Below are positions 50,804 to 54,416 of a stretch of 64,000 nucleotides of DNA, one piece after another. The first letter of the stretch is position 1. Each line of letters opens with the position of its first letter. Source of the stretch: Pelotomaculum thermopropionicum SI (GTDB lineage: Bacteria; Bacillota; Desulfotomaculia; Desulfotomaculales; Pelotomaculaceae); assembly GCA_000010565.1 (NCBI GenBank), contig AP009389.1, forward strand, positions 1,674,001 through 1,738,000, in the 5' to 3' direction. Both the position numbers and the translations under genes were made by a program. A model generated the notes under the pieces. The model ran no database searches. It saw nothing but the letters and a program-made list of their open reading frames with translations, and was not told where the DNA came from.

Positions 50804-51208
50804 AGGAGAACTCTCTTTGCCCAATGTTTTCCACCCCTTTCCTGATAGTATCGACAATTCCCTGGGATCCATAATCCTTGTAGGTATTTTGCTCATTTCT
50901 ATGAAGTAGACGTGACTGATGTAAGCGAAGAAGAGGCGGTACCTCTGCTCATGTACCGGAGTAAAACAAGGGACTTTTCAATAGCCGGCCGAATAAGTAA
51001 ACCGGTGCCGGCAAATACGAAATATCCATGCTGTGCAGGTTTTGTTCAGGCAAAAACTCAGAAAAGCCCGGCTCACGGAATCCATCGTATTTGGATCTAG
51101 GGCACGCACGCTGAATAATACTCAGCAAGGTGCAGAACCTTTGTTTTCATTGAAAAACCCCTTTAGAGCGGGAGGTTCAAGAAAGAAAAGGCCGCACGCC
51201 TGCCGGTA
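50804..51208. other. Degenerate stretch without an intact gene
   Basis: About 400 bp with no convincing gene. On the plus strand at 51078-51107 the reading ESIVFGSRAR recalls a second nucleotidyltransferase motif, and at 50909-50990 another frame reads VDVTDVSEEEAVPLLMYRSK. Neither has a start with a ribosome site or extends far. I take this as decayed toxin-antitoxin-like DNA. Confidence 0.5.
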
Positions 51209-51445
51209 TCAACTTTCTTTGGCGCGCGGCCCGATTTCCCTATAATTCCGTCGTTTTTCAATCGCCGCAATTATTTCATCAAGACTCATTTGATCCAGCC
51301 ACTTTGCCCGCTCCCTCGTATAATCTCCCGCTCCAGTATCGTATTGCTGAATAAACCGAGCCATACCCACAGGACCAAGAGCTTTGGCCAGGGCGACTAA
51401 ACCCGCATTTTTGATTTCATTAGGACTCATTGCTTGAGTGTTCAC
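51209..51445 (-). CDS. Small protein paired with the PIN gene, probable antitoxin
   Basis: 78 residues, MNTQAMSPNEIKNAGLVALA, then GPVGMARFIQQYDTGAGDYT and SLDEIIAAIEKRRN. It overlaps the end of the PIN-domain gene by 26 bases. Small helical proteins of this kind accompany PIN genes. The order is toxin first, antitoxin second, the reverse of most vapBC pairs. No DNA-binding motif is evident. Antitoxin role is inferred from the pairing. Confidence 0.65.
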   Translation of the reverse strand: MNTQAMSPNEIKNAGLVALAKALGPVGMARFIQQYDTGAGDYTRERAKWLDQMSLDEIIAAIEKRRNYREIGPRAKES

Positions 51446-51887
51446 TTTTTGTCACCTCCATAAGCCACAGAACTGGGTTTTCGACTCTTATTTTCAGCTT
51501 GTTCCTATTTCTCTTTGCTTTTCTCAGCAGCTTATCATCTGTTGTCAGAAATACTTCTGCGCCGCCATATTCGGCACACGCAAGGTGTAAAGCATCGTAA
51601 GCCTTCATACCAATTTTTTCAAGCTCTCTGGCGCGTAACTTTATTTTTTCGTCCATTTTCGTTTTTTCTTGGGCTATGGCAGTTAAAGCAGCCACCTTCT
51701 TCTTTCTCTCCTCTTCAGGAATAGCAGAGATCTCAAATTCTATCGCCTCGCTATTGAGCAGCCGCCATTTTTCTTTTTCGCCCCCATTTAAAATTGTTAA
51801 AACGGCTTCTGATTCAAGGCGAATTCTCTCTTGAAACTGATCATCAAATGGTCTATTTAGACAGCAGACATCAAGGTAAATCAGCAT
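51420..51887 (-). CDS. PIN-domain protein, putative VapC-like ribonuclease toxin
   Basis: 155 residues with a PIN-type nuclease core: the first acidic residue in LIYLDVCCLNRPFDDQFQER, a central Glu in NSEAIEFEIS, and YDALHLACAE and LTTDDKLLRKA supplying the later acids. The RNA target is unknown. It overlaps the downstream small gene. The LDVCCLNRPFDD N-terminus marks a PIN subfamily often seen with an uncharacterised small partner. Confidence 0.78.
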   Translation of the reverse strand: MLIYLDVCCLNRPFDDQFQERIRLESEAVLTILNGGEKEKWRLLNSEAIEFEISAIPEEERKKKVAALTAIAQEKTKMDEKIKLRARELEKIGMKAYDALHLACAEYGGAEVFLTTDDKLLRKAKRNRNKLKIRVENPVLWLMEVTKSEHSSNES

Positions 51888-52158
51888 AACTGTTCTCCCT
51901 GGCGCAAAATTTATTTATTGATCCTTCATCTCAAGTACACCTCAGCTCAGTTCATATTATATCTTATGGCCATCCTTAGATTCCAGTATTTTGATTCAAA
52001 AAATTTCCCTCTTTTTTACGGATGAAGTGGAGGGGACCTTTCCCGGCGGAGAACAGCCGGGCTTGACCTTGAGGATCCGCAGAATTCTTTCGGCAAGGTT
52101 TATGCGGAAGCCGACCGATTTAAAAAACATTTTTTTTTTTGGATTAATTTCGATTTCT

Positions 52159-52473
52159 TTAATTCCCTGCTTGCCGGGGCCCGTCCAACCGTTTCAAGTG
52201 TTCGACCACCTGCCGCGGCGGCAGCCCGCCTTCGATAATTACCGTACCGTTGACAACCGCCACCGGCAGTTTCCCGCCAAAAGCACAGCCGGTATCCTGC
52301 CGGTAAATCAACTCCACCCGGCTTCCGTAGAGCCGTTGCAAAACTCCTTCTAAAAGCCGGTATTGGAACACCAGATCGCGTTCACCCAACGCGCATCCTT
52401 CCTGCGCTCATCCTGATGGTTGCCCCTGCTCATTGGCCGGGATGCTCCCGTAGACTTCCACAATCAGTGGCAT
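52159..52473 (-). CDS. Thioredoxin-like candidate selenoprotein with in-frame UGA
   Basis: Minus-strand frame ATG 52473 (AAGGA 8 bases upstream) reads MPLIVEVYGSIPANEQGQPS, Gly, then UGA at 52410-52408, then AQEGCALGERDLVFQYRLLE and on to TAA at 52159. With UGA as selenocysteine the protein has 104 residues, Sec22 and Cys27 (U-x4-C), a long helix and LPVAVVNG as a cis-Pro-type strand, all in thioredoxin-fold order. A six-pair SECIS-like hairpin follows at the correct distance. I recall a thioredoxin-like selenoprotein family annotated SaoT that may match, but cannot check it. Without Sec, a TTG at 52389 with AGGAAGG could make only the C-terminal part. Confidence 0.7.
52377..52393 (-). promoter_or_regulatory. 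Candidate bacterial SECIS hairpin
   Basis: CGCGUU-GGGUG-AACGCG: perfect 6-bp stem, 5-base loop starting with G and containing GGU. The loop starts 20 bases after the UGA at 52410-52408. All three published bacterial SECIS criteria (stem, loop G, 16-37 base distance) are met. Confidence 0.7.
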
Positions 52474-52598
52474 ATTCGCCATCCTTTTCGCCATTTCCTC
52501 TCACTTCCGCCCCATTCTTCCCGCTGCCCACATTAGTCCGGTGGATGTCAAGTGCGCCGGTTTCCAAAGCGTGGTGAGCCAGAATCAGGTGTAAATAT

Positions 52599-53531
52599 TT
52601 ACCTGGGTTTTAATTGAATTACTTTTTGTTTTTTATTTGCAGGTTTGTCCAGATTAATAACTCCATTAACCTTATCTTGCCGGTATAATTTTTCTTTTAT
52701 TTTATCCTGGCTTTCTCCGGCCATCAAAGCCAGGATCGCTTCGCATTTCAAACGGTTATCCGCCTGCGACTTCATAATTTCTTCCAGCAGCTTTAACTCA
52801 TTCTTTGCCCGGTCAGAGACGTTACTTTTCCGGCTTTCTTTGACGATTATATCATCACAGACGTCCATTGCTTCCAGCAGTTCTCTTTGATCGAGACGCA
52901 GGCCCTGCAGAAAATAAGAGTCAGTCAGACTTTTTCTTGGGAATTCCGCTGTTTTTTGCAATAACAGCAAAGGCTGGCCCCAGTTAGAAACCCAATCTGA
53001 ATCTCGCTGGAAGTGGAAGCCAATCCGGTTATAATTTACTTCGGGGATAAACTTGCCGGCAAAGGCTTTATTCAAACGCTCCTTCAAATCATCCAGAATC
53101 TTTGTAATTACCTCTTCGGATAAGACTTCCCCAGGATGAAATTCCTGGTACATCAGATTTGCATCATTGATCACCTGCTCCCGGCGACTCTTCAAAAAAT
53201 TATCCACCCCTCCAGGAAGCGCTTTGTTTAACAGTTCCCGTCCTTCATTATTAATGCGGGCCAATTCTTTTTCGAAGAGTGGCCTGACTTTCTCCGGCAT
53301 CCACCGCTGATCATCGCCAAGGGGGTAGCTGAGCTGGGTTAAAATCCGCCTTCCCGCCTTTTTCTTATTTTCGAGAACGCGGAGCGTTTCTTCATCAAGA
53401 ACGGATATCCTGTACTCCGTTTTGCGGGATACCGCTCCCACCCGGCGAAAACTTTCCACCCCGAACCACTCAGCCCTGATTGGAGCATCCAAAGGCTGGA
53501 TCCGGCTAAACTTATCAAAATTAACCTGCAC
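52599..53531 (-). CDS. Truncated protein of unknown function
   Basis: 310 residues, mostly helical and charged. The open frame continues 14 codons upstream of the GTG at 53531 (AEKVSRLYEKGVQVNF) to a stop, with a poor ribosome site, so the N-terminus was probably longer and has been lost. Readable parts are LTQLSYPLGDDQRWMPEKV and NRIGFHFQRDSDWVSNWGQP. I do not recognise the family. It sits among methylase, helicase and TPR fragments and may be the tail of a large defence-type protein; that is inference only. Confidence 0.5.
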   Translation of the reverse strand: MQVNFDKFSRIQPLDAPIRAEWFGVESFRRVGAVSRKTEYRISVLDEETLRVLENKKKAGRRILTQLSYPLGDDQRWMPEKVRPLFEKELARINNEGRELLNKALPGGVDNFLKSRREQVINDANLMYQEFHPGEVLSEEVITKILDDLKERLNKAFAGKFIPEVNYNRIGFHFQRDSDWVSNWGQPLLLLQKTAEFPRKSLTDSYFLQGLRLDQRELLEAMDVCDDIIVKESRKSNVSDRAKNELKLLEEIMKSQADNRLKCEAILALMAGESQDKIKEKLYRQDKVNGVINLDKPANKKQKVIQLKPR

Positions 53532-53544
53532 GCCCTTTTCATAA

Positions 53545-53859
53545 AGACGGCTGACCTTTTCCGCTAATCTCTATAAAGTATTGGAAAAAATATATAAAGA
53601 GCAACCGGGTAATGCTACTGTTTGTGCCAAAATTGGTTTTGCATATTTACAGGATGGTAACCGGAGATTGGCTATTCAATACTTTAATGAAGCACTAATG
53701 TTTGATAAATATGAACCGACCGCACTTTATTATATGGCTATAATAAGGTATTTAGATGGAAGGGTTGACAAAGCGATGCAGTACCTGGACAGTCTCCGGA
53801 AATCAGATGCCGACCTGGCAAAAGTCAGGCAATTGGAAAAACAGTTAGGGGTTGGATAA
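53545..53859 (+). pseudogene. C-terminal TPR fragment
   Basis: Open from 53545, reading NLYKVLEKIYKEQPGNATV, then IGFAYLQDGNRRLAIQYFNE and ALYYMAIIRYLDGRVDKAMQ to a stop at 53859: two to three tetratricopeptide repeats. There is no start codon with a ribosome site; it begins where the truncated gene on the other strand ends. It looks like the end of a larger TPR protein left after a rearrangement. Confidence 0.6.
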
Positions 53860-54416
53860 GTGAAATAGCCTTTGATGTTTCGCTCTTTCTTCCTCTTCCA
53901 CCCATCAGCCAGGGCATTCATCGGATAAACCACCATGGCCTGGATGCCCCGGCCGTTGCCATGGCGAAGCACGTAATCCACGATGAGCACAAGGTAGGCC
54001 AGACTTTTCCCGGAGCCGGTTCCCGTGGTACAATGATCTGCAGTAGCGATTGTGCCCGCAGACCTTGTCCCCTTTGGTCCAACGTTATAAGGAAGTTTAA
54101 AAAAATAAGTTTTCCCCTGCAAGGTATATTTAGCTCGTTCAACCACCCGTGGATCGTTAACCCTGTCCTCCAGCAATATCCCTTCTTCATCGGGAAAAAG
54201 TTCCCTGGCAATTTTCCGGCGGACGTGATCCAGAACCACCACCAGAAAACCACCGCTGCCGCAGGCCGGGTCCAGGACCATATCTTTTTCGTCCGGATCA
54301 AGCATTTTCACCATAAAACGAATGATGTTGCGATGGGTAAAAAACTGGCCTCGTTCTTGTTTTAAAGTATTAGAAACGATTGTTTCATAGGCCATCCTAT
54401 TTTTAGAATACCACAA
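53730..54416 (-). pseudogene. Chimeric remnant: type I-like DNA methylase fragment joined to a helicase fragment
   Basis: Residues 8-100 match an N6-adenine methylase of the HsdM kind (LKQERGQFFTHRNIIRFMVK, then LDPACGSGGFLVVVLDHV). At about residue 125 this switches abruptly to a superfamily 2 helicase start, TTGTGSGKSLAYLVLIVDYV (Walker A) with AMVVYPMNALA. The last 60 residues are antisense to the TPR fragment and meaningless. Neither part is complete: the methylase lacks its NPPY motif and the helicase everything after motif Ia. It is a deletion scar of a restriction or phage-defence locus. Confidence 0.8.

Follow-up and report, generated by a model that had tools for sequence, protein, structure and literature searches.

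The question raised by this locus, in a stretch of 64,000 nucleotides of the Pelotomaculum thermopropionicum SI genome (hereafter the window), is whether a UGA lying inside a short reading frame is a stop or a selenocysteine (Sec) codon and, if the latter, to what kind of protein the frame belongs. We approached it by following the frame, the RNA around the UGA and the encoded protein through related genomes.

The reading frame and its in-frame UGA

The frame runs on the minus strand from ATG 52473-52471 through UGA 52410-52408 to TAA 52161-52159, with 104 codons before the stop and a single UGA inside the ORF 52473..52159. The initial annotation had described this ATG-to-TAA frame through a UGA at codon 22 without giving a strand, and the frame proved to be real. 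Also as it predicted, the plain ORF list begins the gene at a TTG past the UGA (TTG 52389) and reports only 76 residues. That ATG 52473 is the exact start is not certain; homologues share the start position, and two further ATGs in the same frame are found 9 and 21 nt 5' of it. The features discussed below are as follows.

52159..52473 including the stop codon, minus strand: predicted selenoprotein gene, 104 residues with Sec at codon 22 (translation with UGA as Sec; homologues in 22 genomes; equal pN/pS on both sides)
52408..52410, minus strand: in-frame UGA, codon 22, putative selenocysteine codon (UGA in 22/22 aligned members)
52393..52395, minus strand: codon of Cys27, possible resolving cysteine of U-x4-C (found in the window's branch, not in the f8 branch)
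52377..52393, minus strand: candidate bacterial SECIS (bSECIS) hairpin CGCGUU-GGGUG-AACGCG, loop 52387-52383 (covariation; offset-specific synonymous-shuffle test; published bSECIS rules)
52483..52488, minus strand: Shine-Dalgarno-like AAAAGG, 9 nt 5' of the ATG (sequence)
51148..53074, no strand: horizontally shared segment (blastn, 97.9% identical to G080, a genome of another taxonomic family)
52108-53305, no strand given: overlapping shared stretch (blastn, 95.5% identical to G067, from a third family)

Relatives that read through the UGA came to light in a six-frame search of the order. The profile built on the alignment of 22 members (A1), which was used for the searches of both order and phylum, matched 22 of the 113 genomes of the order at E <1e-22, and every one of these 22 has a copy with exactly one TGA and no other stop. 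Homologues could be aligned across the UGA, as the initial annotation had expected, and UGA is present in all of them. The Sec column is invariant in A1, as are G9, Y57 and G76 (window numbering). Pooled over within-group pairs, pN/pS was 0.33 before the UGA and 0.33 after it, and therefore the two halves of the single frame are constrained alike at the protein level. No member of the close family has Cys in place of Sec, and an additional tandem paralogue carries Ser in that column. This paralogue belongs to a tandem pair (L050 7014-7334 and 7490-7804) downstream of an NADH-dependent [FeFe] hydrogenase operon, the first copy having Ser and the next Sec. Elsewhere, an intact family gene is followed directly 3' by a degenerate second copy (L047 5340-5653) whose reading is interrupted by frame breaks and additional UGAs, apparently a decaying paralogue. 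Outside the order, the sample of 398 genomes from the phylum contained no clear members. Searching named genomes with a UGA-containing DNA pattern gave seven true members, from Desulfofundulus thermosubterraneus, Desulforudis, Desulfocucumis palustris, Desulfovirgula and other Bacillota of like kind, together with seven matches that we did not accept as members.

The order U-x4-C that the initial annotation had read from the sequence holds in the window's branch, where the second residue is Cys27, but not as a universal feature, since the f8 branch is without that Cys. Some f8 members have a Cys directly before Sec (CU), and one (L027) reads PFU and has neither Cys.

The hairpin and the selenocysteine machinery

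The hairpin CGCGUU-GGGUG-AACGCG has a perfect 6-bp stem and a 5-nt loop that starts 20 nt past the UGA. Published rules for bSECIS elements specify a loop of 3-9 nt, a stem of 4-16 bp, a G in the first two loop positions, a distance of 16-37 nt from the UGA and an MFE at or below -7.5 (PMC13188914). With its GGGUG loop, 6 bp, 20 nt and -10.4 kcal/mol, the hairpin falls within all four constraints of the published model (PMC13188914), in line with the bacterial SECIS claimed at this spot by the initial annotation. Taken alone, the window hairpin is unexceptional, with a folding z of -0.8 over 57 nt and p ~0.04 against synonymous shuffles; it is the comparison with relatives, not the window sequence by itself, that places it far above chance.

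In 14 gap-free relatives, 90.5% of the cells of the 6-bp stem were paired, against at most 54% in the control, where the partner was slid by 1-3 columns. Cells with a double change numbered 17, compared with 5.6 +/- 1.8 in shuffles, compensatory changes were seen in five of the six stem pairs, and the loop G in alignment column 25 is invariant. The peptide encoded by the stem stretch varies (AFGERD, TSGRSQ, AAGGQQ among members); because the peptide changes over the same stretch, the stem is not explained by peptide conservation. We also shuffled codons synonymously with local codon usage, keeping the peptide, in 16 non-redundant members. The excess of hairpins at the UGA offset gave a Fisher p = 9e-9, a combined value that is optimistic since the members share ancestry and are not phylogenetically independent. 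At each of 27 other offsets along the genes, a control in which shared ancestry has no obvious effect, Fisher p was >0.03. From these comparisons we conclude that the hairpin is under selection as RNA.

The genome, a single contig of 3,025,375 bases, encodes the components that the initial annotation had suggested looking for. A tRNA-Sec is present (71 bits; anticodon TCA by ARAGORN), selB (1485779-1487665) and selA (1487710-1489089) are adjacent, and selD, at 1935066-1935989, carries an in-frame UGA of its own; a published table gives the P. thermopropionicum selD as 1934961-1935986 (PMC2432076). SelB-like matches occur in all 113 genomes of the order, 109 of them above the SelB cut-off. G029, which is 84% complete, has a family member yet is among the four genomes without a full-scoring SelB.

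It can thus be proposed that the hairpin just 3' of the UGA would recruit SelB with Sec-tRNA-Sec, so that the UGA would be read as selenocysteine and a 104-residue product made. Two other ways of reading the codon have to be considered. The UGA could be a true stop, with only the part from TTG 52389 translated and the upstream part a leader or a relic; this is exactly the part that a standard ORF list shows. However, the protein is conserved to the same degree before and after the codon, every aligned member has UGA as its stop here, and the place expected of a SECIS holds a conserved hairpin; we regard a true stop as extremely improbable. Just as improbable is that a suppressor tRNA or a changed code supplies some other amino acid, for there is one UGA per gene, at one column, along with a SECIS hairpin and a complete Sec machinery, and nothing was found to favour such a reading. 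Selenocysteine insertion at the UGA is strongly supported by the comparative evidence, and so is the assignment of 52473..52159 as a genuine selenoprotein gene.

Fold, kinship and likely chemistry of the protein

AlphaFold2, run on A1, gave a model with a pLDDT of 82.7 and a pTM of 0.76, in which the order of elements is E3-9, H31-52, E53-59, E71-74, E77-81 and H86-97, and Sec22 lies after strand 1 and before helix 1. Confidence is among the lowest in the Sec loop, where residues 21-30 average a pLDDT of 60. The protein is thus predicted to be a small thioredoxin-like beta-alpha-beta-beta-beta-alpha domain with Sec where thioredoxin-fold proteins have the catalytic Cys, and the thioredoxin-fold order suggested by the initial annotation gains support from both the model and the structure comparisons. 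Foldseek ranked 1xg8, the DUF1462 structure of S. aureus SA0798, first, at an E of only 5e-3 and a TM of 0.53, and then thioredoxins and SelW. Scores from VIA-align were middling, with Z up to 8.6 for thioredoxins and, for 1xg8, Z 7.3 and rmsd 3.8 over 87 aligned residues.

The window protein has no match to PF07315 (DUF1462) up to E 10 and so falls below the gathering threshold. Remote relatives found with the A1 profile score at or near the DUF1462 gathering score, some of them passing it, and they match 1xg8 by profile at E 9e-5. In profile-profile comparison (hhalign) they match A1 with probabilities of 98.7 and 99.1, values that are not independent, as these relatives were recruited by A1; their matches to DUF1462 are independent. 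By these profile comparisons the window protein is a remote relative of the DUF1462/YuzD proteins, and remote kinship is all that we claim.

The kinship opens onto a wider group. In the 398 genomes of the phylum, about 105 DUF1462-like relatives include 50 with exactly one in-frame UGA (counted by hand), three with only TAG and none with only TAA, and 18 distant or parallel UGA genes show, as a set, a hairpin excess with p ~1e-12, a value for which related sequences are included. NCBIfam cut-offs were reached by none of the distant DUF1462-like members that were scanned. The counts and the hairpin excess suggest a larger DUF1462-like group, for the most part unannotated, in which Sec is common. 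The window gene is probably one branch of a large DUF1462-like, thioredoxin-fold superfamily of Bacillota, with Sec in several branches and in place of different Cys residues. DUF1462-like genes whose single in-frame UGA stands at differing Cys positions are L081, L082, L084, L086, L088, L090, L091, L100 and L073-L080; several distant ones have a strong hairpin at SECIS distance, for example the 12-bp stem with loop GGC in L081.

As to what the protein does, it is most likely a selenol-based thiol/disulfide oxidoreductase. The Sec selenol would attack a substrate that is oxidised or electrophilic; Cys27, in the window's branch, may then form a selenenylsulfide with Sec, to be reopened by a thioredoxin-type reductant, whereas the f8 branch would need a one-selenol, glutaredoxin-like mechanism. 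Because f8 is without Cys27 and L027 has neither Cys, a resolving Cys cannot be required in every branch. The absence of a resolving Cys from one branch would also fit another reading of the same selenoprotein, in which the main task of the Sec loop is to bind a metal or metalloid or to carry selenium, as in an ArsD-like chaperone, rather than to exchange disulfides. Weak matches link distant relatives to ArsD and an ArsD-related family, the Foldseek search with the model also returned ArsD structures, and in G072 a few kb at most separate the family gene from selD. None of the ArsD matches reaches a cut-off, however, and among the neighbours examined there are no recurrent arsenic genes. Sec is moreover unusual as a plain metal ligand in ArsD-like chaperones, which counts against such a role. 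We consider the chaperone function unlikely, while giving it much more weight than either alternative reading of the codon.

Transfer, novelty and relation to known selenoproteins

The gene lies in a segment shared with G080 and G067 at the identities listed above, and the flanks shared with these genomes are about 70% identical (blastn). In the host's own taxonomic family, no match to the gene was found among the listed genomes. Since the identity of the segment is far above that of its flanks, the blastn comparison identifies a recent horizontal transfer of a ~2-kb segment within the order. Relatives of the gene were absent from plasmid records and viral contigs, and therefore no current carrier of the transferred segment has been identified. 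Overlapping the shared segment are a PIN-domain gene and a 310-residue gene (52599-53531); next to it is a broken methyltransferase/helicase gene. On the minus strand, the 310-residue gene lies 126 nt upstream of the selenoprotein gene, was co-transferred with it and is shortened in G080 and G067; it has no Pfam, NCBIfam or PADLOC match. The broken defence gene is a 228-residue ORF (53730-54416, minus strand) that fuses fragments of a type I/II DNA methyltransferase and of a helicase-like protein.

The suggestion that the gene is the survivor of a selenoprotein-containing operon has to be given up: no operon is conserved around the family gene, and the locality is a horizontally acquired segment. 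The neighbours vary by lineage, with Hdr/Tfr-like genes in the g40 lineage, HemL or an [FeFe] hydrogenase operon in the f8 lineage and unrelated genes in the others, and they indicate no substrate or partner. Across g40, the ~340 nt that separate the family gene from an HdrC-like gene are similar (L036 9310-9650, with L035, L037 and L041); no second hidden selenoprotein was found in this downstream gap, which holds no ORF and has no Rfam match. Taking transfer, decoding and kinship together, we consider it very probable that the locus holds a SECIS-recoded selenoprotein gene, horizontally acquired, for what is most likely a thioredoxin-like selenol oxidoreductase remotely related to DUF1462/YuzD.

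Neither NCBIfam 20.0 (June 2026) nor Pfam gave a match to the window protein up to E 10, and PADLOC returned nothing for it. The table of a 2026 review lists 119 families and subfamilies of prokaryotic selenoproteins (PMC13188914), among which there is neither a DUF1462 entry nor a matching motif (PMC13188914). Relative to Pfam, NCBIfam and the 119-family table, the gene would thus represent a new selenoprotein family; priority beyond these is not certain. The review does mention unvalidated deep-Sep candidates from groundwater genomes, but with nothing alike in the databases and the table just named it is quite improbable that the family has already been published or annotated elsewhere. The finding would add one more to the 119 families, probably one branch of a larger group not yet catalogued, and would account for genes that are truncated or missing in many anaerobic members of the Bacillota. 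The branches with and without a resolving cysteine, together with the distant Cys relatives, could serve as a natural series in which to ask why Sec is retained, and the UGA-column profile could go straight into annotation pipelines.

The family can be set beside several known systems. TsoC (NF045708, motif NEPxGxxU) is likewise a small selenoprotein, and one family member gave a weak match to it (E 0.09). Membership in TsoC was rejected, as there was no match in this genome (G000); in the order, TsoC matches number only two, both under the curated 45-bit cut-off of NF045708 and both at loci separate from the family gene. These are thioredoxin-type UGA genes, L103 (G072:C136:2366-2602) and L102 (G048:C16:17937-18176), below the NF045708 cut-off and with the motifs NPAGKTUAGLCALA and RPAGLRURGLCALA, respectively. 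In G072, L103 adjoins selD-like and Hsp33-like genes and is ~1.6 kb from the gene of the present family. Selenoprotein W-like proteins (PF10262) share the general fold (VIA Z ~7.9), the small size and the single Sec, but their motif is CxxU (Table 1, PMC13188914) and the window protein has no sequence match to them.

With the UxxC thioredoxins, Brachyspira Sec.1/Sec.2 (PMC5330540) and SaoT, the family has in common a thioredoxin-type fold, a Sec placed in the catalytic region or close to it and a bSECIS downstream; it differs in having U-x4-C or a lone U, not UxxC, and no family model is common to them. Membership in the thioredoxin-type UxxC proteins (PF00085) was ruled out by the U-x4-C of one branch and the lack of a Cys there in the other. 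In Brachyspira Sec.1/Sec.2, Sec lies in a short N-terminal extension before the Thioredoxin_3 domain (PMC5330540), whereas the modelled Sec of the window protein falls inside a single domain, between strand 1 and helix 1, and this membership was ruled out as well. With the DUF1462/YuzD proteins (PF07315, 1xg8) it would share a small thioredoxin-like domain that has cysteines in the first loop; unlike them, the window protein has no CxxC and carries its Sec in a G-x-x-P...PGU-type loop.
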